From: Rhodanobacter sp. B04
Lineage (GTDB): Bacteria > Pseudomonadota > Gammaproteobacteria > Xanthomonadales > Rhodanobacteraceae
DNA length: 64,000 nucleotides
Assembly (NCBI RefSeq): GCF_002001125.1
Contig: NZ_MUNV01000011.1
Coordinates: 62,001-126,000 of the forward strand
Direction: 5' to 3'
Positions within the stretch are counted from its first letter, which is position 1; each line of letters starts with the position of its first letter. The translations under genes were made by a program, and so were the position numbers. This document shows, piece by piece, positions 8,807-18,519 of this stretch. Below the pieces are notes generated by a model that had not been told where the DNA came from, did no database searches, and saw nothing but the letters and a program-made list of their open reading frames with translations.

Positions 8807-10723
8807 GTGAGCAAATCCGACACCATCGTTCTCGACGGCAACAGCCTCACCCGCGCCCAGCTGGTGGCGGTGGCACGCAACGGCAACAAGGTTTCACTGG
8901 ACCCGGCCGGGCTCAAGCGCGTGCAGCGCGCGGCCGATTTCCTCGCCGAGAAAGTCAGCTGCGGCGAGCCGACCTATGGCGTCACCACCGGTTTCGGCAG
9001 CAACGCGGACAAGCTGCTCGGTGCGCATCGGTTGCGCGACGAATTGCCGGGAGCCGCTCTGATCAAAGATGGGCCGCACAAGCCCGAAGGCACGCTGCTG
9101 GAAGAGCTGCAGCACAACCTGATCACCACCCACGCGGTGTGCGTGGGCAAGCCGTTCGGCGAGGACGTGGTGCGGGCGATGCTGCTGATCCGCATCAATA
9201 CGCTGATGCGCGGGCATTCCGGCATCCGCGTGAGCACGCTCGAAGCGTTGACCGCGATGCTCAACGCCGGTGTGGTGCCGGTGGTGCCGGAGAAGGGCTC
9301 GGTCGGCGCCAGTGGCGACCTCGCGCCGTTGTCGCATCTGGCGATCGTGCTGCTCGGTGGCGGCGAAGCGTTCTATCGAGGCGAGCGCGTCCCGGGCGCG
9401 GAAGCGCTGGAGCGCGCTGGCCTCGCGCCGATCCGCCTGTCGTTCAAGGAAGGCTTGGCGCTGAACAACGGCACCGCACAGATGCTGGCGACGGGCGTGC
9501 TCGCGCTGGATACGCTGGAGCAACTGCTGGACACCGCCGACCTGGCCGCGTCGATGACGCTGGATGCGTTCGCCGGTCGCAGCGGCGCACTGCGCCCCGA
9601 AGTGCATGCGCTGCGTCCGCATCCTGGTCAGGTCGAAACGGCCGCGCATGTGCGCGACCTGCTGGCCGGTTCGACCCTGGTCGACATTCCGTATCACCTG
9701 GTGCCGCGCTTCAAGGCGTGGAGTGCCGAGGCGTGGAGCGAACCGGACGATCAGGCGCTCAGCTTCGACATCGGCTGGGACTGGGTGCCGGCCAACCAGC
9801 GGCATGGCCGCGAGGCGTTCTACAGCCGCTTCCTGCCGTTCAAGGGCGGCAAGAAGCATCAGCCGCAGGATGCCTACAGCCTGCGCTGCATGCCGCAGGT
9901 ACATGGCGCGGTGCGCGATGCCTGGGCGCAGGCTTGCCGCGTGTTCGACATCGAACTGAACTCGGTCACCGACAATCCGCTGATCTTCCCGGACAACGAG
10001 GACGCGCAGTTCATCGAGGAGCAGGTGATCTCGGCCGGCCACTTCCACGGCATGCCGCTGGCGCTGGCGATGAGTTACGTGAAGGCGGCGATCCCGGTGC
10101 TGGCATCGATCTCCGAGCGCCGGCTAAACAAGCTGGTCGATTCGGCCACCAACGATGGCCTGCCGGCCTTTCTCACCGGCAACGAAGACGGCACCGATTC
10201 AGGCTTCATGATCGTGCAGTACACCGCGGCGGCGCTGGTCAACGACCTGGCCACCCGCGCGCATCCGGCCAGCGTGTACTCGGTGCCGACCAGCGCGAAC
10301 GCCGAGGATCACGTGTCGATGGGCGCCAACGAAGCGCGCCACGTGCTGGAGATGACCGAGGATCTTGGTCATGTACTCGCCTTGGAGCTGTACACCGCAG
10401 CGCAGGCGTTGGACTACCGTCAGGCGATGCTGAATGCCGCACGCCGGCTGGCCAGCCGTGGCGGCTGGCAGGCGCTGGCCGCCAAGATTTCCAACGCGCC
10501 ACGCGAGGATCAGCCGCACTACGCTCAATTCGTCGCCGAAGTGCAGCAGCTCGCCGCTGCGCTGGCCCATGCCGGGGATTTCCACGCCGGTGCCAGCGTG
10601 CGCGATGCGCATGCGATCCTGCGCCGGCACATCGGCTTCATGCATCGCGATCGTGCGATGGATGGCGAGGTGCGTACCGTGTGCACGCTGGTGCAGCAGG
10701 GCGCATTTCGTTCCGCGGCATGA
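8807..10723 (+). CDS. Histidine/aromatic amino acid ammonia-lyase with an internal insertion
   Basis: Member of the MIO-cofactor lyase family that removes ammonia from histidine or an aromatic amino acid. The Ala-Ser-Gly triad that cyclises to the MIO group is at residues 168-170 (GSVGASGDLAPLSH), and the catalytic tyrosine is Tyr57 in YGVTTGFG. The residue pair preceding AVCVGKPF is Thr-His, closer to the Ser-His of histidine lyases than to the selectivity pairs of tyrosine or phenylalanine lyases. At 638 residues it is over 100 longer than HutH. About 55 extra residues (290-350, rich in W, F and P) separate the LRPHPGQ and QDAYSLRC blocks, and the C-terminus is extended. No other hut gene is nearby, so the substrate is uncertain. 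The start is GTG. Confidence 0.8.
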   Translation: MSKSDTIVLDGNSLTRAQLVAVARNGNKVSLDPAGLKRVQRAADFLAEKVSCGEPTYGVTTGFGSNADKLLGAHRLRDELPGAALIKDGPHKPEGTLLEELQHNLITTHAVCVGKPFGEDVVRAMLLIRINTLMRGHSGIRVSTLEALTAMLNAGVVPVVPEKGSVGASGDLAPLSHLAIVLLGGGEAFYRGERVPGAEALERAGLAPIRLSFKEGLALNNGTAQMLATGVLALDTLEQLLDTADLAASMTLDAFAGRSGALRPEVHALRPHPGQVETAAHVRDLLAGSTLVDIPYHLVPRFKAWSAEAWSEPDDQALSFDIGWDWVPANQRHGREAFYSRFLPFKGGKKHQPQDAYSLRCMPQVHGAVRDAWAQACRVFDIELNSVTDNPLIFPDNEDAQFIEEQVISAGHFHGMPLALAMSYVKAAIPVLASISERRLNKLVDSATNDGLPAFLTGNEDGTDSGFMIVQYTAAALVNDLATRAHPASVYSVPTSANAEDHVSMGANEARHVLEMTEDLGHVLALELYTAAQALDYRQAMLNAARRLASRGGWQALAAKISNAPREDQPHYAQFVAEVQQLAAALAHAGDFHAGASVRDAHAILRRHIGFMHRDRAMDGEVRTVCTLVQQGAFRSAA

Positions 10724-10750
10724 ACCATCATTTTTAATGGAAGCAAATCC

Positions 10751-11143
10751 ATGAGCCTGATCCAAACCCCGGTGTCCTACGGCGAGCTGATCGACAAGAT
10801 CACCATCCTCGAGATCAAGTCGCGGCGGATTGCCGACGATGCCAAGCTCGCCAACGTGCGCAACGAACTGGACCTGCTCAATGCGACCTGGGCCAACGAT
10901 CCTGCCTCGCACACGGACATCGGCGACGAGCGCGCGCGCCTGCTGGCAGTGAACGAACTGCTGTGGGACATCGAGGACAGGATCCGCCTGAAGGAGCGCG
11001 CCCAGGCATTCGACCAGGAGTTCATCGAGCTGGCGCGTGCGGTCTATTTCCGCAACGACGAGCGCGCGGCGTTCAAGCGCGAGATCAACCTCAAGCTCGG
11101 TTCGCAGCTGGTCGAGGAAAAGTCCTACCAGGATTACCGCTAG
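10751..11143 (+). CDS. DUF6165 family protein, 3' end altered by element insertion
   Basis: Small soluble protein (130 residues) of the DUF6165 family; the function is unknown. It begins MSLIQTPVSYGELIDKITIL and is largely helical, with a charged central region (EDRIRLKERAQAFDQEF). It lies 27 bp after the ammonia-lyase gene and is followed, across the inserted element, by lipopolysaccharide core genes, where relatives of this gene are often placed. The last codons lie inside attL: the frame ends GAT TAC CGC TAG, where CGC TAG comes from the element. At the other end of the element the same core continues CGG CAG CAG AAC TGA, so the uninterrupted gene would encode three further residues (QQN). 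Confidence 0.8.
   Translation: MSLIQTPVSYGELIDKITILEIKSRRIADDAKLANVRNELDLLNATWANDPASHTDIGDERARLLAVNELLWDIEDRIRLKERAQAFDQEFIELARAVYFRNDERAAFKREINLKLGSQLVEEKSYQDYR
11121..11139. other. attL core site in the 3' end of the DUF6165 gene
   Basis: AGTCCTACCAGGATTACCG, identical to the copy at 17363-17381. It contains the dyad TCCT-ACC-AGGA (11123-11133), a plausible centre for tyrosine-recombinase strand exchange. Bases on either side differ between the two copies, which defines the 19-bp limit. Confidence 0.88.
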
Positions 11144-11191
11144 AGGGCCGAGCGCGTCCGCTGGCGTCCGTAGATGATTCCTAAGTGATTG

Positions 11192-11213
11192 AAAATACGT
11201 TGTTCTGTATTTT
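11192..11213. repeat. Inverted repeat upstream of the integrase
   Basis: AAAATAC and GTATTTT form a perfect 7-base inverted repeat with an 8-base spacer, in an AT-rich stretch about 90 bp before the integrase start. It may be a regulator or excisionase binding site; nothing further supports a specific role. Confidence 0.4.
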
Positions 11214-11251
11214 GTCGGCTTAACGCGGAATCGCTCGGACGCTTGCAAAAT

Positions 11252-11287
11252 GGGTAGCTAGACGGGTAGCTTTCGCTCTAGCTACCC
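11252..11287. repeat. Left arm-type integrase sites (GGGTAGCT)
   Basis: GGGTAGCT occurs at 11252-11259 and 11264-11271, a 12-bp period, and in inverted orientation at 11280-11287 (AGCTACCC). The same pair with the same 12-bp period is present inside attR. The inverted copy lies 14 bp before the integrase ATG, which would allow integrase to repress its own gene. Confidence 0.7.
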
Positions 11288-11301
11288 AACGAAATGCCGC
11301 C

Positions 11302-12537
11302 ATGCCGAAGCGTCAGACCAAGTTGCTCACCGATCCGCAGCTGCGCCGTCTGGCTGCCGCTGGCACCCCTGTCGCGGTATCCGATGGAGATGGGCTGACC
11401 TTCACCCTGTCCGCTGCTGGCACCGCCGCATGGGCGCTGCGCTACCGCATCGGTGGACGTCGCCGTGAACTCACGCTGGGCAGGTATCCCGACCTGAAGC
11501 TGGTAGATGCACGCAAGGCGGCAGCGAAGGCGCGTGTGCAAGTCGAGTCCGGCGTGGACGTGGCCGTTGAGAAACAGCGCCGCAAGACAGCCGATGCGCT
11601 GGCATGGACGGTGCGCGAATTGCTCCGCGACTTTGAAACCCGTGTTGCACCGGGTCTGGCTGCCAGTACGGCCTTTGGCCTGCTGAATTACATGCGCACG
11701 GACATACTGCCGGCACTGGGATCGCGTGTCGCCCGCGACGTGACTCCGGATGATGCGCAAGCCACGGTCGAGCGTGCCGCCGAGCGCAGCTATTGGGCTG
11801 GTGCGAACGCGCGCAAGGCGGGCATTGCCCTGTTCAAGCATGCCCGCGCACGTCGCATCGTCGTGGCGAACCCGTTTCGTGCAGTGAACATGCCGAGCAT
11901 TGTCGCCCAACCTGCCAAGCGCCAGCGCGTCGCGTTGAAAGCTGAGCAGATACGCGCCTTCATGCTGGGGCTGTCCGCGCTCGCACCTGTCGACGCCGCG
12001 CTGGCCGAGCTGCTGCTACGCACCGGCGTGCGCATCGGTGAAGCCCTGAGTGCGGAATGGTTGGACGTCCATGCCGACGAGTGGCGCATACCACGCGAGA
12101 AAATCAAAACTCGCAAACGCATGGCCGATCCGGCGTTCGTGATCCGGCTGCATCCTTCGACGATTACAGTTTTCGAGCAGTTGCGGAGCTTGTCCGCCGG
12201 CTCGCGATGGGTATTCCCCGCACTGGCTGGCGGACAGGGCCGCAGCATGGATCACGAACGCGCGCTGGATCGGCTCAAGGATTACGCAGCTACGCTGCCG
12301 AACTTCCCGGCCATCGTCTTTCACGATCTGCGCAGCACCGTGCGCAGCGGCATGCGTGCGCTGAATATCCGGGTGGAAGTGTGCGAACGTGCCTTGAACC
12401 ATAGCCTGCCGGGCTTGCCCGGTGTCTATGACATTGTGCAGCCTGAGCAAGTAGCCGATGCGTTCTCGCAGTGGGGCGACTATCTGGACGTGTTGCGCAA
12501 AGGTGCTGACATTGTGCCAATCAAGCGGATGAAGTGA
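11302..12537 (+). CDS. int: Tyrosine recombinase (integrase) of the element
   Basis: Site-specific recombinase expected to integrate and excise the element at the 19-bp core. The 411-residue product has an N-terminal arm-DNA-binding domain of the P4-integrase type (residues 1-95, with GGRRRELTLGRYPDLKLVDAR), a core-binding domain (about 100-205) and a C-terminal catalytic domain. The active-site residues are all visible: Arg244 in TGVRIGEAL, His341 and Arg344 in FHDLRS, His367 in LNHSLPG and the nucleophile Tyr376 in GVYDIV. It lies next to attL and reads inward, as in most such elements. Start ATG at 11302; the GGGTAGCT sites lie just upstream. Confidence 0.95.
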   Translation: MPKRQTKLLTDPQLRRLAAAGTPVAVSDGDGLTFTLSAAGTAAWALRYRIGGRRRELTLGRYPDLKLVDARKAAAKARVQVESGVDVAVEKQRRKTADALAWTVRELLRDFETRVAPGLAASTAFGLLNYMRTDILPALGSRVARDVTPDDAQATVERAAERSYWAGANARKAGIALFKHARARRIVVANPFRAVNMPSIVAQPAKRQRVALKAEQIRAFMLGLSALAPVDAALAELLLRTGVRIGEALSAEWLDVHADEWRIPREKIKTRKRMADPAFVIRLHPSTITVFEQLRSLSAGSRWVFPALAGGQGRSMDHERALDRLKDYAATLPNFPAIVFHDLRSTVRSGMRALNIRVEVCERALNHSLPGLPGVYDIVQPEQVADAFSQWGDYLDVLRKGADIVPIKRMK

Positions 12538-12538
12538 C

Positions 12539-12949
12539 ATGCGCAAAGGAACGCCGCCGGGCGTCACGTTCGACGTACCCCATGAGTTGCTGCTGGCACA
12601 GTTTGAGAAATTATGCGAAGGCTGGCTGGAACTGGCCGCGCGTCTTGAGCGTGGTGAAGCGCTGGGCGCTTTCGATCGAGAAACCATCGCCATTGGGATA
12701 CGGCAGTATGTGAAAGGCATGAAGCCACCCCCACGTTCGCGTGGAAACAAGCCGAAGTTTGATGCGGGTGTTGAGGCGATGCGTTATGGCCATTTGGTGA
12801 ATAGCGGAGTCGAGCCTTCCGAAGCTATCGGCCAGATTGCCGACAAGCTCGGTGTGAGCGAAGAAGCAGTACGCCGCGCTATAGCGCCGATGCGCAAAGA
12901 TGCGCTGTATATAGCGAGCTTGGGGATGTTTAAGCCAAAAGACGATTGA
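12539..12949 (+). CDS. Hypothetical protein of the element, possible HTH segment
   Basis: A 136-residue soluble protein, unrecognised as a family. Its ATG lies one base after the integrase stop, so it is probably co-transcribed. The C-terminal half contains EAIGQIADKLGVSEEAVRRAI (shortened here by overlap of helices), which has the spacing of a helix-turn-helix, preceded by a basic proline-rich linker PPPRSRGNKPKF. A DNA-binding or regulatory role is possible by inference only. Its stop codon overlaps the left arm of a perfect 12-bp inverted repeat. Confidence 0.65.
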   Translation: MRKGTPPGVTFDVPHELLLAQFEKLCEGWLELAARLERGEALGAFDRETIAIGIRQYVKGMKPPPRSRGNKPKFDAGVEAMRYGHLVNSGVEPSEAIGQIADKLGVSEEAVRRAIAPMRKDALYIASLGMFKPKDD

Positions 12950-12975
12950 AAACCTTTTCCAGCGAAAAGGTTTTC
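12948..12975. repeat. Perfect 12-bp inverted repeat before the AlpA-like gene
   Basis: GAAAACCTTTTC (12948-12959) and GAAAAGGTTTTC (12964-12975) are exact reverse complements with a 4-base CAGC spacer. There is no T tract after it, so an operator or an mRNA hairpin is more likely than a simple terminator. A weaker related inverted repeat, GCGTTTTC/GAAAATGC, follows at about 12982-13003. Confidence 0.7.
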
Positions 12976-13044
12976 GACAGCGCGTTTTCTGTGTGGAAAA
13001 TGCATTTCCGAACCCAGCAATTCCGCACGGGTTCGGAGACGTCC

Positions 13045-13302
13045 ATGCACACCACCCAAGAACCATTCCGCAGTCAGGCCGCGCCGAAGTCCGGCACGGT
13101 TGAAATCAAACCCGTCCGGCTGATCCGCCTGCCCGAAGTCATGCGCCAGAGCGGTCATGCGCGTAGCTCCATCTACGATGGCATCCGCGACGGCACGTTT
13201 CCAAAACCTGTCCCGCTGTGCGGTCGCAGCGTGGCATGGGTCGAGTCCGAAGTGCAGCAGTGGATTGCCGAGCGCATCGCCGCGTCGCGGGGTGTGGCAT
13301 GA
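13045..13302 (+). CDS. alpA: AlpA-like transcriptional regulator / excisionase
   Basis: Small DNA-binding protein of the MerR-superfamily AlpA group, which in P4-like elements activates the integrase or acts as excisionase. The 85-residue product has the diagnostic core LIRLPEVMRQSGHARSSIYD followed by GTFPKPVPLCGRSVAW and VQQWIAER, the usual helix-turn-helix and wing. The ATG at 13045 has a GGAG sequence 6 bases upstream; a longer frame would need a TTG at 12946 inside the preceding gene. It begins about 70 bp after the perfect inverted repeat, a likely regulatory site. Its stop overlaps the next start (ATGA). Confidence 0.88.
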   Translation: MHTTQEPFRSQAAPKSGTVEIKPVRLIRLPEVMRQSGHARSSIYDGIRDGTFPKPVPLCGRSVAWVESEVQQWIAERIAASRGVA

Positions 13303-13457
13303 ACCTGATAACTCTGGCCATCGGAGCCACCGACGATAGCCGCAACCACCTGCGCGACTACGCCGACGCCACGGACGCTCCTGCATGGGAAGTAGTCGAA
13401 GCTGCCGACTTGCTGGATAGGGTCGCCGATCTTCTGAATAAGGCGGCGCAGTCATGA
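13299..13457 (+). CDS. Small acidic protein of the element
   Basis: A 52-codon frame whose start overlaps the AlpA-like stop as ATGA and whose stop overlaps the next start the same way. This double coupling is the main support for its being a gene. The product starts MNLITLAIGATDDSR and is acidic and helical (EVVEAADLLDRVADLLNKAA), with no recognised domain. Confidence 0.65.
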   Translation: MNLITLAIGATDDSRNHLRDYADATDAPAWEVVEAADLLDRVADLLNKAAQS

Positions 13458-13915
13458 CTGCCATTGCGAACCAGAGTCCGTCTTCACTGCTGTTGTCACG
13501 TCTTGAAGGTGTCATCAAGACCTGCAAAGGCTGGCGCGCACGTTGCCCGCACTGTGGCGGCAAGGGACAAAAGCTGGCCATTGCCGAGGGCGATAACGGC
13601 ACGCTGCTGGTGACTTGTTTCAGTTGCCACGACACGTATGCGGTACTAGCCGCCGTGGGCCTGACCGTCGCCGACCTGTTCATCCGGAAAGACCTGCGCA
13701 GCATGACGCCATCGGAACGGAGCCAGCTCCGACAGGCGGCATTGATCCCGCGCTGGCACGCGGCATTGAATGTGCTGGTGACTGAGGCCAACGTGGTCTT
13801 GGCTGCATCCAATCAGCTCGGCGACAACCGGCCCTTGAATGATGCTGACCTGACGCGCGTTCGCCTGTGCGCCCTTCGGATTTTCGACGCGGCGGAGGTG
13901 CTTCATGGAAACTGA
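13454..13915 (+). CDS. Zinc-finger protein, CHC2-primase-like
   Basis: A 153-residue protein with a four-cysteine zinc-binding motif, Cys31-Pro-His-Cys34 and Cys55-Phe-Ser-Cys58, separated by a beta-rich stretch (KLAIAEGDNGTLLVTC). This resembles the CHC2 zinc ribbon of DnaG-type primases and of P4-alpha-type replication proteins, here as a separate polypeptide without a visible Toprim domain. The C-terminal part is helical. It lies directly before the P-loop ATPase gene and overlaps it by 11 bp, so the two probably act together in replication of the element. That role is inferred from motif and position. Confidence 0.75.
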   Translation: MTAIANQSPSSLLLSRLEGVIKTCKGWRARCPHCGGKGQKLAIAEGDNGTLLVTCFSCHDTYAVLAAVGLTVADLFIRKDLRSMTPSERSQLRQAALIPRWHAALNVLVTEANVVLAASNQLGDNRPLNDADLTRVRLCALRIFDAAEVLHGN

Positions 13916-15536
13916 AACCTTCAGCGGCGGCCCCGACGATATGGCAGCCCGGGAGGAAGCATTGCAGCCGGCCGCCGGCCGCATCGCCCTGTTCGATTGC
14001 AACGGCCAGCGCAAGGCGCAAGCCACGGTGCTCACCGAGATAGGCCAGCAGCACCACTTGTTTCACGATCCAGACAGCGGAGCGTTTGCACGGGTAGCGG
14101 TCGCCGATCATGCCGAGGTCTTCCGTATTGCTGGCAGCGAGTACCGCGACCTACTGGGCCGGGCCTACTACCTGCTAACCGGCGCGGGAGCGAACCGCAA
14201 CGCGATTACTGATGCCGTTGCCACGCTCACCGCGACCGCGCGTTATGCAGGCCCGGAGGAACCCGTCCACCTGCGCGTCGGTGCCAGCGGTGACGGCATC
14301 GTGATCGACACCGGCGGCAGCAACTGGGCCGTGATCCAGGTTGACTCTTACGGATGGCGGATAGCGCACCAGCACAGCGCAAACTTCCGGCGCACCACGA
14401 AAGCGGCTGCCTTGCCTGTAGCCAGTAGCGCTGACTTCAATCTGATCTGGAAGTACGTCAACGTGGAACGGGCTGACCGTGTGCTGGTGGCTGGCTGGGC
14501 ACTGGCAGCAATGCGCCCGCATGGCCCGTTCCCGATCCTGCTGCTACTCGGGGAACAGGGCACTGGCAAGTCCAATTCCAGCCGCACCATGAAGTCGCTC
14601 ACCGATCCGTCCGGCGTGCCATTGCGACCACCTCCGCGCGATGACCGTGACTTGCTGGTGGCCGCGCTCAATTCGTGGGTGCTGGCATTGGACAATCTGA
14701 GCGGAGCAACGCCACAACTGTCCGATGCTCTGTGCCGCCTTGCCACCGGCGGAGCACTGGCCGGACGCAAGCTCTACACCGACATAGAAGAATCGGCGCA
14801 CAACATCCAGCGCCCCGTCATCTTGAACGGCATTGACGATCTGGCGTCACGTCCCGATCTGGCCGAGCGATGCATCCACCTGACCCTGCCTCCGCTCACC
14901 ACACGCGCCACCGAGGCCGATCTGGCGGCACAGTTCAAGGTGGACGCGCCGAAGATTATGGCGGCCCTGCTGGACGGCTTGGCGTTGGCACTGAGCGAGG
15001 TGGATACCGTCAACATTGGCCCGTTGCCCCGTATGGCTGACTTCGCGAAGTGGGCCGCTGCCGGCGTGCCTGCACTTGGCTTCACCAGCGAACAGTTCAT
15101 TACCGCGTACCGGAGCAATCAGGCCGATGCCGTGGCGCTGGGGCTGGGATCGTCCACCGTGGCCTGCACCATCCGCAGCTTTGCCGAGCGACAAGGCCGA
15201 TGGAAGGGTACGGCCCGCGAGCTGTTATCACGGTTGAATCAGGAAGCCGAAGCTGACCGGAACGTGCCCGGTTGGCCGCACTCACCGAAGGGCTTGCAGA
15301 CGATCCTCCGTCGGCTGGGGCCATCTCTACGCAGTGTCGGCATCCACGTCGAGCACGACAAGAAGGCGGACAACCAGTACCTGACCCTATCGTGCAAGCC
15401 CCGTGGGGAACTGCCACAAGTGCCACAACTGCCAGCCGAACCGGTCGACGATGGCAGATTGGCAGTTGTGGCAGATGCCCGCGAGGTTTGCACGGTGCCC
15501 TCGCGATCCAGTGACAAGGAGGTCACGACGATATGA
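13905..15536 (+). CDS. P-loop ATPase, putative replication helicase of the element
   Basis: A 543-residue protein with Walker A GEQGTGKS at residues 216-223 and a probable Walker B strand WVLALDNLS ending at Asp263. A conserved-looking CRLATGGALAGRKLY segment follows, as in DUF927/SF3-like ATPases of mobile elements. The N-terminal 200 residues hold no recognised domain; the C-terminal region (about 400-500, with a GLQTILRRLGPSLRSVGI block) resembles a winged helix. It overlaps the zinc-finger gene upstream and the TubC_N-like gene downstream (ATGA). A role as replicative helicase is inferred from its place beside a CHC2-like protein. Its last 60 codons contain a cluster of TGCCA repeats. Confidence 0.75.
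   Translation: METETFSGGPDDMAAREEALQPAAGRIALFDCNGQRKAQATVLTEIGQQHHLFHDPDSGAFARVAVADHAEVFRIAGSEYRDLLGRAYYLLTGAGANRNAITDAVATLTATARYAGPEEPVHLRVGASGDGIVIDTGGSNWAVIQVDSYGWRIAHQHSANFRRTTKAAALPVASSADFNLIWKYVNVERADRVLVAGWALAAMRPHGPFPILLLLGEQGTGKSNSSRTMKSLTDPSGVPLRPPPRDDRDLLVAALNSWVLALDNLSGATPQLSDALCRLATGGALAGRKLYTDIEESAHNIQRPVILNGIDDLASRPDLAERCIHLTLPPLTTRATEADLAAQFKVDAPKIMAALLDGLALALSEVDTVNIGPLPRMADFAKWAAAGVPALGFTSEQFITAYRSNQADAVALGLGSSTVACTIRSFAERQGRWKGTARELLSRLNQEAEADRNVPGWPHSPKGLQTILRRLGPSLRSVGIHVEHDKKADNQYLTLSCKPRGELPQVPQLPAEPVDDGRLAVVADAREVCTVPSRSSDKEVTTI
15412..15474. repeat. Symmetric iteron-like cluster (TGCCA / TGGCA), candidate origin
   Basis: TGCCA starts at 15412, 15421 and 15430 (9-bp period) and the reverse complement TGGCAG starts at 15452, 15460 and 15469 (8- and 9-bp spacing). 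Within this, TGCCACAACTGCCA (15421-15434) and TGGCAGTTGTGGCA (15460-15473) form a perfect 14-bp inverted repeat. It lies inside the 3' end of the putative helicase gene, encoding a QVPQLPAEP-type low-complexity tail. Iterons inside or next to a replication gene are common in satellites and plasmids; function here is inferred. Confidence 0.5.
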
Positions 15537-15748
15537 ACCCGAACCCGCTGCAAACCTTGCTGCTGGTGTGGGCTGCTGGCGGTGTGCTCACCCGCGACGG
15601 CGACAACCTTCACGTTGAAGCACCGAAGGGAGCGATACCGCCGCAACTGGTGGATGCCCTGCGCGCGAACAAGATGGAGTTGCTGGCCACCTTGCCTGTC
15701 CGTGATTCCGGAATAACTACAGCCCCTAAAAGGGAGCCAGCCGCATGA
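15533..15748 (+). CDS. TubC N-terminal docking domain-like small protein
   Basis: A 71-residue protein matching the TubC_N pattern: an N-terminal helix LQTLLLVWAAGGVLT, a short beta hairpin GDNLHVEAPKG, then a helix PQLVDALRANKMELLATL. In modular megasynthases this fold docks subunits, but free-standing copies occur in mobile elements beside replication genes, where the role is unknown. The start overlaps the helicase stop and the stop overlaps the next start (both ATGA), which points to translational coupling. Confidence 0.75.
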   Translation: MNPNPLQTLLLVWAAGGVLTRDGDNLHVEAPKGAIPPQLVDALRANKMELLATLPVRDSGITTAPKREPAA

Positions 15749-16053
15749 CATGGCAACCCGGACGGCCTGTATTGAGCGCCAGTGACCGTGTCGACTGGCA
15801 GGCATGGCGTAAGGCCCGCAAGCTGGAGCAGCAGCGCCATCGTCGCGGCATGCATCCAAGAATCGACTACTACCCCTCCGAGGATGTGCTGGCACTGATC
15901 CGCGAACGCACGCATGGCCGCGTCGGCGGCGACCAGTCGAGTGTCATTGACGAGCTGGTGCGGACGGCCTTCCGGAATAAAATAGGACGATTTAGAAACG
16001 GCGGGAAGGGCGAGACCGTGAGCACTTCCGGAATTACCGATGCCATCGCGTAG
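15745..16053 (+). CDS. Hypothetical small protein, possible ribbon-helix-helix fold
   Basis: A 102-residue basic protein coupled to the preceding gene by ATGA. After an arginine-rich N-terminus (RKARKLEQQRHRRG), the block RIDYYPSEDVLALIRERT and SSVIDELVRTAFRNKIG has a strand-helix-helix pattern like ribbon-helix-helix DNA-binding proteins. This is a pattern judgement without a recognised family. It may regulate element genes or partition or replicate with the upstream module. Confidence 0.6.
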   Translation: MTWQPGRPVLSASDRVDWQAWRKARKLEQQRHRRGMHPRIDYYPSEDVLALIRERTHGRVGGDQSSVIDELVRTAFRNKIGRFRNGGKGETVSTSGITDAIA

Positions 16054-16063
16054 GCGCGCGCGC

Positions 16064-16291
16064 ATGAATGACTCTGCAAAACAGGTTGCGATGGAGCGAC
16101 AGCGCCAAGGTCAGATGAAGCACGACAACCGCGTGGTGTGCGATGCGCGTCGGCGGCACGACGGCCAACCCTGCCAAGCGCTGAGTGTGCCGGGCAAGAA
16201 ACGATGCAAGTGGCACGGCGGGTGCTCTACCGGCCCGCGCACGGTGGCTGGCAAGCTCAAGTGTGCGGCAAACCTGCCGATCCGGCATTGA
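16064..16291 (+). CDS. HGGxSTGPRT-motif small protein
   Basis: A 75-residue basic protein with Cys-rich and HGG motifs: CDARRRHDGQPCQAL, then CKWHGGCSTGPRT. Small proteins with this HGG-x-STGP-R/K-T signature are frequent in phages and genomic islands of proteobacteria; their function is unknown, and the Cys/His pattern suggests metal binding. The ATG at 16064 is used; an alternative ATG at 16040 overlaps the preceding gene by 14 bp and neither has a decisive ribosome binding site. It ends the coupled gene run that starts with the AlpA-like gene. Confidence 0.7.
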   Translation: MNDSAKQVAMERQRQGQMKHDNRVVCDARRRHDGQPCQALSVPGKKRCKWHGGCSTGPRTVAGKLKCAANLPIRH

Positions 16292-16464
16292 GAGCAAGTC
16301 GTTAACAATGACATTCGGTCCCTATGCGGGCGTGGGCAATCGCTTGCACCTAACCTCAATGTCGCCATAAGGACGGGAACGGTACGTGCGTGTAGCGCGC
16401 GACCCCAAGCGTAGAATGCCAACTTCCATATTGATATTCGCGGAGTGACGAAAATGGAGAGCTT

Positions 16465-17166
16465 GTGAAGTTCATAAAGACGATAGGGCTACTCATGCTG
16501 GTTGCGGCTCTCACCGCGTGCAATGGTGGGGCACCCGAGAATGATGTTGGATCGGATGATGCAACGGCTTCGCCGCCCATTGAGGCGCCTGCCACCACGC
16601 GGAGTCCAGCCTTGCCTGAAAAAGAACAACAGCTAGTTGCGCTCACACCTTTGTTTCGCCGCGAGTGGAAGCTCGCCAATGAATCCAATCCGATTGCGTC
16701 TGATCAGAAAGTTGATGCGGTCAATAAGCAATTTGATGCGGAGATTTGCAAGTTCGCCAACACCCCTCATGTGGCTCATTGGGTAGGAACCGTCTACCAA
16801 CTTGGGCTTGCAGACGACGACTCCAAGAGCGCATATCTCCGATTGGTTCTTACTGCGCGCGGTACTGCTGCCGTGAGTATTTCGTCCATGCTCGGCACCG
16901 ACTACGTCACGCTATCGAGCTGGATGACCGACCGGGGAGACAACGACGCAAGTCTCCTTGCTAAGCCCGGAACGCCGCTCATAAAAAGCCTTTCGACACT
17001 GCAAGCGGGCGATGTTGTCGTTTTTGATGGCGACTTCCAGAAAATAGACGGTCCTGGATGCCTGCGCACTAACAGCAATATCGAAACACCAGCCGACAAC
17101 GCGCGGGCGAACGATGATCGACCGGACTATATGTTTAAATTCACGAAGGTTTCCAAGTCCGAATAG
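16465..17166 (+). CDS. Putative lipoprotein, cargo gene of the element
   Basis: A 233-residue secreted protein with a signal peptide (MKFIKTIGLLMLVAALTAC) ending in a lipobox, so Cys19 would be lipidated. The mature part begins with a Pro/Thr/Glu-rich linker and continues with a soluble domain containing VGTVYQLGLADDDSKSAYLRL and GDVVVFDGDFQ, a beta-rich pattern. No family is recognised. The start is GTG with GGAG 6 bases upstream. Its codon use and base composition are less GC-rich than those of the replication genes, and 173 bp separate it from them, so it looks like an independently expressed passenger (moron). A surface role such as exclusion is only a guess. Confidence 0.75.
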   Translation: MKFIKTIGLLMLVAALTACNGGAPENDVGSDDATASPPIEAPATTRSPALPEKEQQLVALTPLFRREWKLANESNPIASDQKVDAVNKQFDAEICKFANTPHVAHWVGTVYQLGLADDDSKSAYLRLVLTARGTAAVSISSMLGTDYVTLSSWMTDRGDNDASLLAKPGTPLIKSLSTLQAGDVVVFDGDFQKIDGPGCLRTNSNIETPADNARANDDRPDYMFKFTKVSKSE

Positions 17167-17296
17167 TTCAGCGGTTTTAGCCGCGGCTCATTGCTAACAG
17201 TGCGGAACAATGCCGACTGGATGTCGCAAATTGCGATGGAATGCGATGAACGGCGCGGTCTCGATCCGAGCGAGTTTCGGTCCGCGTGACACAATT

Positions 17297-17316
17297 GGGT
17301 AGCTCTATGGGTAGCT
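17297..17316. repeat. Right arm-type integrase sites (GGGTAGCT)
   Basis: GGGTAGCT at 17297-17304 and 17309-17316, with the same 12-bp period as the left-end pair and 47 bp before the attR core. The only sites of this kind noticed in the element are at its two ends. Confidence 0.7.
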
Positions 17317-17362
17317 AAAACGTAAATTGCCTTCGAAAGCTATGCTCGGCAACGTATTCGAT

Positions 17363-17381
17363 AGTCCTACCAGGATTACCG
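17363..17381. other. attR core site
   Basis: Second copy of the 19-bp core. Reading on from it, the frame CGG CAG CAG AAC TGA is the displaced original 3' end of the DUF6165 gene, which shows that the pre-insertion site was intragenic and that the element replaced the last codons. Confidence 0.88.
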
Positions 17382-17390
17382 GCAGCAGAA

Positions 17391-17485
17391 CTGAGGAAAG
17401 AGGAGTGAGAAACGAGAGAAGAGCCACGGATTGCGAGTCTTTCTATCGTCCCCCACTGCTCTCCGCTCACTCCTCGCTCTTCGCT
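17391..17485. repeat. Purine-rich imperfect inverted repeat near the convergent gene ends
   Basis: AGAGGAGTGAG on the left and its complement CTCACTCCTC on the right (which runs into the 3' end of the glycosyltransferase) form an imperfect inverted repeat. The original DUF6165 gene and the glycosyltransferase converge here, so it could act as a terminator for both. The motif resembles the GTGAG-type repeat at 22527-22609. Confidence 0.45.
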
Positions 17486-18519
17486 GCGGCTTCATAGCGC
17501 TCGATCACCTCGTCGACGCCAATCAGGTCCATCACGCCGGGTTTCTCGATCTTGCTGCCCCACGGAATGTCGCTGGCTGGCTTGCCCAGATACTTGCGCG
17601 CGGCCTCGTCGTACTTGTTCACGCACCAGCGGCGGTCGGAGTAGGGGCCGGATCGGTCCGGATTGCTCGCGGCGTGCAGGCCCAGCACCTTGGTGCCGAC
17701 CGCGTTGGCCATGTGCATCGGCCCGGAGTCGGGTGTCAGCAGCAATTGCGCGCGATCGAGCAGGGCCAGCAGTTTCTTCAGCGTGTCCTTGCCGGTGAGG
17801 TCCAGTGGCGCGCGCTGGCAGGCGGCCAGCACTGCGTCGGCCATCGTGCGCTCACCGCTGGAAGGGCCGCCGACCATTACCACGCGCCAACCGCGTGCGG
17901 CGGCGTGATCCATCACGGCGGCGTAGCGCTCCGGTCGCCAGTTGCGCAACGCATGGCTGGAACTGGGGCTGACCAGCAGGGTGGGTGTATCGCCGGGTAG
18001 TTGTTCGACGGCCCAGGCATGCGCCTCGTCGGGAATCGGGATGTCCCAGCGCACCGCCGTCTGCCGCAACCCAAGCGGCTCGCAGAAGCTGCCGATCGCA
18101 TCGAGCACATGTTCGCCGCTGCGCGCAGGTATGCGTTGGTTGATGACCAGTCCATGCAGGTCCCTTGCGCGTGCACGGTCATAGCCGATGCGGCGAACGG
18201 CCTTGATGCCAAGGCTCAGCAGGTTCGAGCGCATCGCCACCTGCATCTGCAGCAGCGCATCGAAGCGTCGTTCGCGCAATGCGTCACGTACGGCGCGCAT
18301 GCCGTTCCAGCCGGCCGCCTTGTCGAACGTGACGAACTCCACGCCGGGCAGGTCACCGACCAGCTTGCGTTCCAGCTTGCCAACGACCCATGTCAGTGCG
18401 GTTTCCGGCCACGCCTGTTGCAGGGTGCGCACCAGCGGCACCACATGGGTGACGTCGCCGATGGCGGAGGTGCGCAGCAGGCAGATCGAGGCAGCGGCAG
18501 TCATCGGGTTCGAGGTCAT
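17467..18519 (-). CDS. Glycosyltransferase family 9 (lipopolysaccharide heptosyltransferase type)
   Basis: Cytoplasmic-face GT9 transferase that adds heptose or a related sugar to the lipopolysaccharide inner core. The 350-residue product has the N-terminal ICLLRTSAIGDVTHVVPLVR motif, where the Gly-Asp is conserved in WaaC/WaaF, and the C-terminal nucleotide-sugar motif LLTPDSGPMHMANAVGTKVLGL, where the Asp-Ser-Gly-Pro-His-like block is typical. The linkage it makes cannot be told from sequence. The first ATG (18519) is given; a second in-frame ATG at 18504 is equally likely. It is divergent from the Kdo kinase gene with only 33 bp between starts. Confidence 0.88.
   Translation of the reverse strand: MTSNPMTAAASICLLRTSAIGDVTHVVPLVRTLQQAWPETALTWVVGKLERKLVGDLPGVEFVTFDKAAGWNGMRAVRDALRERRFDALLQMQVAMRSNLLSLGIKAVRRIGYDRARARDLHGLVINQRIPARSGEHVLDAIGSFCEPLGLRQTAVRWDIPIPDEAHAWAVEQLPGDTPTLLVSPSSSHALRNWRPERYAAVMDHAAARGWRVVMVGGPSSGERTMADAVLAACQRAPLDLTGKDTLKKLLALLDRAQLLLTPDSGPMHMANAVGTKVLGLHAASNPDRSGPYSDRRWCVNKYDEAARKYLGKPASDIPWGSKIEKPGVMDLIGVDEVIERYEAAAKSEE

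Follow-up and report, generated by a model that had tools for sequence, protein, structure and literature searches.

We examined a stretch of 64,000 nucleotides from the soil bacterium Rhodanobacter sp. B04 (contig NZ_MUNV01000011.1, positions 62,001 to 126,000; here called the window), in which an earlier note, made from the sequence alone, had described a compact integrative element of 6.2 kb. As the note had it, the element is bounded by identical 19-bp repeats (11121-11139 and 17363-17381, spaced 6,242 bp apart) with an integrase gene adjoining one of them. The element and its target site comprise the following features, in window coordinates.

10751-11143, + strand: host gene of family DUF6165 (PF19662, 1.2e-11), the integration target
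11121-11139, + strand: attL, left attachment core of 19 bp, finishing within the last sense codon of the DUF6165 gene
11252-11287, no strand: left arm, likely integrase arm sites (GGGTAGCT at 11252 and 11264, inverted copy at 11280)
11302-12537, + strand: tyrosine integrase (PF00589, 2.2e-10; Arm-DNA-bind_3, PF13356, 1.1e-18)
12539-12949, + strand: 136-aa protein directly after the integrase, no Pfam family above the cut-off
13045-13302, + strand: AlpA-type regulator or excisionase (PF05930, 1.5e-20; phrog_66), start picked by eye
13299-13457, + strand: 52-aa protein
13454-13915, + strand: zinc-ribbon protein, like the zinc domain of DnaG-type primases (phrog_6088, DNA primase, 4.4e-6)
13905-15536, + strand: D5/SF3-type initiator helicase (ATPase) of 543 aa, Walker A motif GEQGTGKS, no Pfam family above the cut-off
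15409-15480, no strand: candidate replication origin, with forward 9-bp iterons at 15409, 15418 and 15427 and inverted copies from 15452
15533-15748, + strand: small protein with a TubC_N domain (PF18563, 1.3e-8)
15745-16053, + strand: 102-aa protein, ribbon-helix-helix-like by eye only, no informative family
16064-16291, + strand: HGGxSTG-domain protein (HGG_STG; NF041373, 4.2e-14)
16465-17166, + strand: lipoprotein-like cargo gene, 233 aa, lipobox by eye, with only phrog_542 at 0.066 in PHROGs
17297-17316, no strand: right arm, likely integrase arm sites (GGGTAGCT at 17297 and 17309, 12 bp apart)
17363-17381, + strand: attR, right attachment core of 19 bp; the DNA beyond it matches by eye the empty-site flank of two other Rhodanobacter genomes (G026 and G031)

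The junction sequences give good support to site-specific integration at the 3′ end of the DUF6165 gene. The 3′ end of this gene contains the left repeat and takes a new stop codon (..YQDYR*) from the element, while in relatives the native protein ends are two or three residues longer than at the occupied site. Among 39 Rhodanobacter genomes, the junction was empty in 29, occupied in 4 and uninformative in 6. We counted a site as empty when a converging heptosyltransferase gene lay within 144 bp of the DUF6165 junction and as uninformative when that gene was not found in the available stretch. The occupied sites are those of B04 itself, of genomes G017 and G009, which carry elements with the same ends (7,166 and 8,032 bp, with integrases 89% and 86% identical in amino acids to the one in the window), and of G015, which holds a remnant. 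The remnant is 1.4 kb long (locus L087, 1068-2524, reverse complement), has no integrase and keeps both ends, with decayed arm sites. The empty sites of G026 and G031 run on into DNA that by eye resembles the right flank in the window. In B04, G017 and G009 the two repeats agree within each genome despite variation between genomes (AGTCC, AGTCT and AGTCG). The precise ends proposed in the earlier note are thus borne out by relatives.

The octamer GGGTAGCT occurs five times in the window, counting both strands, and all five copies lie within the element ends. The elements of G017 and G009 repeat this layout, with a 12-bp-spaced pair on each side and an inverted copy on the left, and the paired octamers in both ends are likely arm sites of the tyrosine integrase. 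The right end (17289-17381) is 90.3% identical to that of G017, and the GC content drops there to 0.54 to 0.57. No tRNA gene was found at the integration site, and an Rfam search of 10500-18500 gave no family match.

The ten proteins of the element were scanned against Pfam, NCBIfam, PHROGs and PADLOC. The reading frames and these scans uphold the gene run given in the earlier note for the AlpA, 52-aa, zinc-ribbon, ATPase, TubC_N, HGGxSTG and cargo genes. For the 102-aa protein they returned no family, its AlphaFold model has a predicted local distance difference test (pLDDT) score of 47.6, and its ribbon-helix-helix label is tentative. Four gene junctions (13299, 13454, 15533 and 15745) are ATGA overlaps. 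The zinc-ribbon protein has no Toprim match and no Pfam family above the cut-off, although a longer homologue at locus L110 matches Toprim_3 (9.5e-22) and a CHC2 zinc finger (8.4e-4). The cargo protein has no Pfam, NCBIfam or PADLOC family. Matches of PADLOC mad1 profiles to helix-turn-helix stretches (4.5e-4 and 0.036) were taken as chance. No capsid, portal, TerL or relaxase family was among the matches of the ten proteins; the note's statement that packaging and transfer genes are lacking holds to that extent, with the reservation that the HGGxSTG protein matches proteins annotated as terminase small subunit (TerS), as described below. Upstream of the AlpA gene, at 12948-12975, lies a perfect 12-bp inverted repeat with a 4-base loop, which by eye is absent from that position in G017.

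By its predicted structure, the ATPase is a SaPI5-type D5/SF3 initiator helicase without a primase domain. The model has the D5/SF3 initiator helicase fold, and its nearest structure in the PDB is the SaPI5 helicase. Residues 20 to 489 of 543 align with residues 316 to 749 of the SaPI5 chain, that is, with its helicase part, which leaves no room for a primase domain. The sequence likewise has no primase match in Pfam and no match to DUF3987 (PF13148) or DUF5906 (PF19263) at E values up to 1. When the ATPase profile was compared with the sequences of solved structures, most matches were to P-loop transporters and GTPases along the Walker region, and the result was not used.

At the 3′ end of the ATPase gene, within the coding sequence, lies an array of 9-bp iterons in forward and inverted orientation, including a perfect 14-bp inverted repeat (15421-15434 and 15460-15473). 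To score such arrays, we required at least two exact 7-mer repeats at a lag of 9 bp within 180 bp at the stop codon. This threshold was reached at 67 of 127 ATPase loci, compared with 10 of 633 windows within the gene body and 8 of 236 taken downstream. The lag-9 measure was picked after seeing the data; in a later control, 13 of 1,096 ends of other genes reached the threshold. After clustering of the ATPases at 60% identity, 35 of 81 clusters did so. The motif varies between elements, and a similar forward and inverted layout recurs at 94 of 126 loci in a loose motif search run without a control. The counts of iterons and neighboring genes leave out L088 to L091 and L094, which are second copies of L081, L079, L078, L080 and L083, as well as L130, assumed to be almost a duplicate of L128 (and kept in the simple inverted-repeat scan), and loci that contain N or are too short for the window used. 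Three other measures were set aside. An initial iteron score, based on any 7-mer repeated in both orientations, gave little discrimination, at 75 of 126 versus 257 of 628. A simple inverted-repeat scan gave a slight rise near the ATPase end with a peak beyond the stop, where stops were taken as profile ends, which are wrong at least for the window. The spacer between arrays was more AT rich than its comparison (mean AT content of 0.43 versus 0.37, higher at 60 of 81 loci), and in the window's own element it is not (0.29 versus 0.36), so an AT-rich spacer is not claimed there.

The iteron array embedded in the helicase gene seems, on this pattern, to be a candidate origin, new here. In SaPIs, the C-terminal domain of the Rep helicase recognizes iterons directly downstream of the rep gene (PMC7581432), and the array here lies at a similar relative place. 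The alternative is that the 9-bp repeats reflect a short repetitive tail of the protein and not an origin, which we consider rather unlikely. It would fit the frame of the arrays, since 119 of the 125 GACG cores in lag-9 arrays are in phase 0, and part of the repeat may therefore be kept by the protein tail, which is modeled with a pLDDT below 50. Against a protein-level repeat stand six arrays that lie entirely past the stop codon, and also the inverted copies: these fit the motif of their own locus better than that of other loci (mean of 7.67 versus 6.84; Wilcoxon P = 1e-13 over 81 non-independent loci), with a perfect 8/8 reverse-complement copy at 59 of 81, even though the 90th percentile of other loci is passed at only 23 of the 81. 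Besides the shared frame, several observations count against an origin. The array in the window barely reaches the threshold with a score of 2, that of G017, a 98% relative, scores 0 because its units have diverged (G009 scores 5; G011 and G023, two further Rhodanobacter elements described below, score 7 each), G017, G011 and G023 all lack the 14-bp inverted repeat, and 60 of the 127 loci fall below the threshold.

To place the element among its relatives, we compared it with the other Rhodanobacter copies. From the zinc-ribbon gene through the 102-aa gene, the DNA of B04 and G017 is 96.1 to 97.6% identical, whereas identity in the flanking genes is 90.0% (DUF6165) and 86.7% (heptosyltransferase). 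The exchange of the core is therefore more recent than the divergence of the chromosomes. Identity is lower in the other element genes (integrase, 85.5%; AlpA, 78.1%; HGGxSTG, 73.2%), and both the post-integrase gene and the cargo gene have been replaced, the latter in G017 by a different putative exported protein. The slot after the integrase holds a protein of 136 aa in B04, 301 aa in G017 and 168 aa in G009, and the 136-aa protein has no tblastn match in the G017 or G009 elements. Judged from these identities, the pattern is one of mosaic exchange of the core between Rhodanobacter species. The 52-aa protein has a homologue in G017 and none in G009, G011 or G023, and for the 102-aa protein the loci searched yielded a homologue nowhere but in G017. 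In G011 and G023, a similar core, whose ATPases are 83% and 82% identical in amino acids to the one in the window, stands with a different integrase at a tRNA-Val site; the G023 element is 8,175 bp long with a 50-bp direct repeat, and that of G011 is 7,988 bp long with an interrupted repeat whose longest exact part is 22 bp. Between AlpA and the zinc-ribbon gene, both have two extra genes (L080, 6780-7828; L081, 6814-7862), and as tested in L080, the 145-aa product is weakly like phage central tail fibre J (phrog_31, 9.3e-6) and the 204-aa product weakly like a terminase large subunit family (phrog_13702, 5.5e-5); neither G011 protein had a match in the phage collection. ATPase relatives were found in 9 of 149 genomes including B04 (weakest match, 5e-4); among 233 genomes from the family, 7 had one (weakest match, 9e-4).

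Wider scans with an ATPase alignment yielded 267 genome loci, of which 80 were kept, and 51 loci on viral contigs; a single-sequence scan of viral contigs had given three pattern matches and no relative. We counted a TubC_N neighbor when it lay after the ATPase on the same strand with centers within 1.8 kb, omitting loci with too little flank. A TubC_N family member stood just after the ATPase at 57 of the 123 loci with enough flank (5/5 Rhodanobacter, 38/69 other genome and 14/49 viral loci). Upstream of the ATPase, a zinc protein was present at 5/5, 28/68 and 6/37 of the respective loci and AlpA at 5/5, 21/57 and 6/33. Six ATPase elements in this wider set are bounded by direct repeats, with a tRNA gene at a repeat in each:

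L092: 5,758 bp, tRNA-Ser, repeat of only 16 bp; module part, zinc protein
L163 (Myxococcales): 8,683 bp, tRNA-Arg; module part, HGGxSTG protein
L114 (Tepidanaerobacteraceae): 9,681 bp, tRNA-Gly at both ends; module part, TubC_N protein
L172: 10,112 bp, tRNA-Val; module part, AlpA
L094: 11,431 bp, tRNA-Pro; module parts, zinc and TubC_N proteins
L095 (Pedosphaera): 12,237 bp, tRNA-Thr; no module part by the profiles used

Some of the helicase relatives stand beside head genes. L172, on a 10.3-kb contig, combines within its 10.1 kb between tRNA-Val repeats an integrase, the helicase, TerL, a fused protease-capsid protein and a portal (PF03354/PF20441, PF05065 and PF04860), which makes it a very compact capsid-forming satellite-like element. 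With head-gene profiles grown from L172, portal relatives were found at 12 loci and TerL relatives at 15, all on viral contigs, and capsid or protease relatives at 16 (14 viral loci plus genome loci L101 and L137). In contigs of 14 to 15.6 kb, helicase relatives with part or all of the module adjoin portal, protease, capsid, TerS and TerL genes. Three of the contigs (L185, L191 and L197; 54 proteins) gave three matches each to portal, protease, TerS and TerL families and three or four to head-protein families, with no tail family among 25 listed of the 75 matched families. Overall, helicase relatives beside capsid and terminase genes are seen in small contigs of 10 to 16 kb. The five Rhodanobacter elements had no match to the L172-derived profiles, and the L172-derived portal profile found none in the genome stretches around the helicase; over 39 whole genomes or records, 17 matched in a portal search (6/6 viral records and 11/33 genomes). 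The helicase is thus used both with and without head genes. The two outcomes that the earlier note had named as telling against its reading, namely, no empty allele in any relative and constant linkage of the gene block to a full prophage, were not what we found: empty alleles exist, and the block occurs without head-profile matches in the five Rhodanobacter elements and with head and terminase genes in some IMG/VR contigs.

The B04 genome itself contains a possible helper. By gene content, contig C22 carries at about 200 to 243 kb (loci L231 to L234) a myovirus-type prophage with TerS, TerL, portal, protease, sheath, tape measure and baseplate families; its portal is of the lambda type (PF05136), while among other terminase and portal families PF03354 and PF04860 had no match in the B04 genome and PF03237 none in five genomes. 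In its left part, this prophage also encodes a reverse transcriptase (PF00078, 9.7e-15; phrog_1423), possibly of a diversity-generating or defense type. The HGGxSTG protein has phrog_6177 (unknown) as its best PHROG and also matches phrog_10899, terminase small subunit, at 1.7e-4, where its G017 homologue scores only 0.025. Proteins with a terminase small subunit annotation match it over their N-terminal part, and 7 of 12 phage records with such matches name the gene putative TerS. In one of these, the match is gene 1 and TerL gene 10; in a second phage record, an unnamed matching gene lies five genes before TerL, and in two further ones no feature in the stretch around the match is named terminase. 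From these matches, the HGGxSTG protein could be packaging related (TerS-like) or a general DNA-binding domain.

Compared with known systems, the element has the direct repeats, the integrase by one end and the empty site in relatives that characterize integrative elements with tyrosine integrases. P4-like satellites likewise have an integrase, an AlpA-type regulator and a helicase-type replication protein, and they are larger than 6.2 kb and carry an alpha primase-helicase and sid, psu and delta genes. No P4-named family was among the Pfam, NCBIfam and PHROGs matches of the element; as the helicase itself escaped Pfam, this absence from the sequence matches is weak. SCCmec uses a Ccr recombinase, whereas the element has a tyrosine integrase. 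The SCCmec helicase Cch2 resembles SaPI5 Rep (D5_N) and binds direct repeats downstream of its gene (PMC7581432), a likeness to the arrangement here, but its partner is CCPol-MP in place of a zinc ribbon and a TubC_N protein. With the SaPIs, and SaPI5 in particular, the element shares the helicase fold, and its candidate iterons lie at the end of the helicase gene, in an array that is weak in B04 and below the threshold in G017. It differs in that primase and D5/SF3 helicase are not joined in one protein, the zinc ribbon is a separate protein, the candidate origin lies inside the coding sequence and no SaPI capsid family is among its matches. Of the TerS and capsid-size genes of PICIs, we found weak TerS-family matches of the HGGxSTG protein and no match for a capsid-size gene. 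The capsid, portal and terminase genes of the capsid-forming PICIs (cfPICIs, a family named in PMC11389934) are likewise missing from the matches of the window element and are seen beside helicase relatives in L172, L185, L191 and L197.

The element also has a close likeness to the phage-inducible chromosomal minimalist islands (PICMIs) of the Vibrionaceae. These average 6.7 kb, have no capsid-remodeling gene, are induced by a virulent phage and packaged as a concatemer, and are laid out as int, in most subfamilies a variable gene overlapping or adjoining it, alpA, often a small gene, and prim, with fis as the integration site (PMC10803314). Minimal satellites without capsid genes are therefore already known, which corrects the earlier note on this point. 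The element resembles PICMIs in its small size, its integrase, AlpA and replication genes, the variable gene by int and the lack of a match to a capsid-remodeling gene. Of the features in the SatelliteFinder model of that report (PMC10803314), it has co-located PF00589 and PF05930; a DUF3987 or DUF5906 primase is missing by the published sequence test, with distant fold kinship possible, and the target is the DUF6165 gene (PF19662) instead of fis. It is therefore not a PICMI, though it works like one, and we read it as PICMI-like in function with a SaPI5-type replicon, belonging to neither family as defined. The literature compared also includes PLE (PMC7145576) and islands of greater size that lie downstream of tmRNA and have int and, as a rule, alpA; jumbo phages were shown to move one of them (PMC12595487). 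The marine Charybdis elements (PMC12324425), which per the abstract are without hallmark genes, were set aside.

Taken together, we hold with moderate confidence that this minimal integrative element carries out its own excision, replication and re-integration and depends on a helper, most likely a phage, to pass between cells. The earlier note had suggested a helper-dependent minimal island that perhaps replicates. Its integration, excision and replication gene set is in place, and given the SaPI5-type helicase fold and the candidate iteron origin, we now say that the element probably replicates itself; its packaging by, and dependence on, a phage we infer. In such a cycle, AlpA would turn on excision together with the integrase, and the helicase would bind its own iterons, melt them and recruit the replisome of the host or helper. 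As the helicase showed no primase domain, another source would have to supply the priming. A helper phage would then package the multicopy DNA, perhaps as concatemers as in PICMIs and perhaps aided by the HGGxSTG protein.

Several points pull the other way. Assemblies cannot show excision, a circle, replication or transfer, and mobility is read here from the sequence record. ATPase relatives also occur in 28 plasmid records and in two records of one phage, so the presence of the helicase is not in itself proof of a satellite. A packaging site common to the element and the C22 prophage was not found over 42.3 kb, where the two have eight words of at least 14 bp in common (longest, 16), compared with four and five in two 21-kb host stretches (longest, 17 and 15). 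An integrative plasmid-like replicon without a phage helper of its own, spreading by transformation, conjugative mobilization or passive generalized transduction, would agree with the plasmid records, 24 of which are predicted to be non-mobilizable, and with the lack of any packaging family match except the uncertain HGGxSTG protein. We nevertheless think it unlikely, given that no relaxase family appears among the Pfam, NCBIfam and PHROGs matches and that AlpA by the replication block and the helicase beside head and terminase genes point to phage dependence. Quite improbable, in our view, is that a prophage or capsid-forming satellite lost its head genes and left the element as a dead or decaying relic. 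Related modules in other taxa do have head genes, and G015 shows that decay occurs at this very site, but the core frames are open, the ends and octamers are kept in three genomes, the core shares 96 to 98% identity with its counterpart in another species, against 87 to 90% for the flanks, and repeat-bounded elements of similar size lie at tRNA genes in unrelated taxa.

The element bears on the question of how few genes a hitchhiking element needs. If our reading is right, a handful of proteins and an origin within coding sequence are enough for integration and copying. The most novel aspect is the embedded candidate origin together with the cross-phylum helicase. We propose, with somewhat more doubt than conviction, that AlpA, a primase-type zinc ribbon, a primase-less SaPI5-type helicase and a TubC_N protein with an embedded iteron origin form a shared engine of small integrative elements across phyla, ranging from engine-only forms of 5.8 to 8 kb to forms of 10 to 16 kb with their own capsid and terminase. 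Helicase and iterons would be the constant part, small partner genes would come and go, and origin recognition and packaging would evolve as separate modules. One type of replication engine would then link minimal islands with capsid-forming satellites in several phyla. No description of this cassette was found in the literature searched; by title and the start of the abstract, papers on TubC_N by name held nothing on mobile elements, and the term TubC did not occur in the satellite literature listed, neither of which shows absence from print. A D5/SF3 helicase with 9-bp iterons at its 3′ end, often with an adjoining TubC_N gene, is a signature that can be scanned for, and the array at 15409-15480 is a defined origin candidate open to laboratory test.

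Cargo of a different kind was seen in two other elements, both of which carry toxin-antitoxin genes: G009 (L079, 9855-10460) and L092 (6573-7264), with a Gp49-like protein and an HI1420-type antidote and with RelE and a helix-turn-helix protein.

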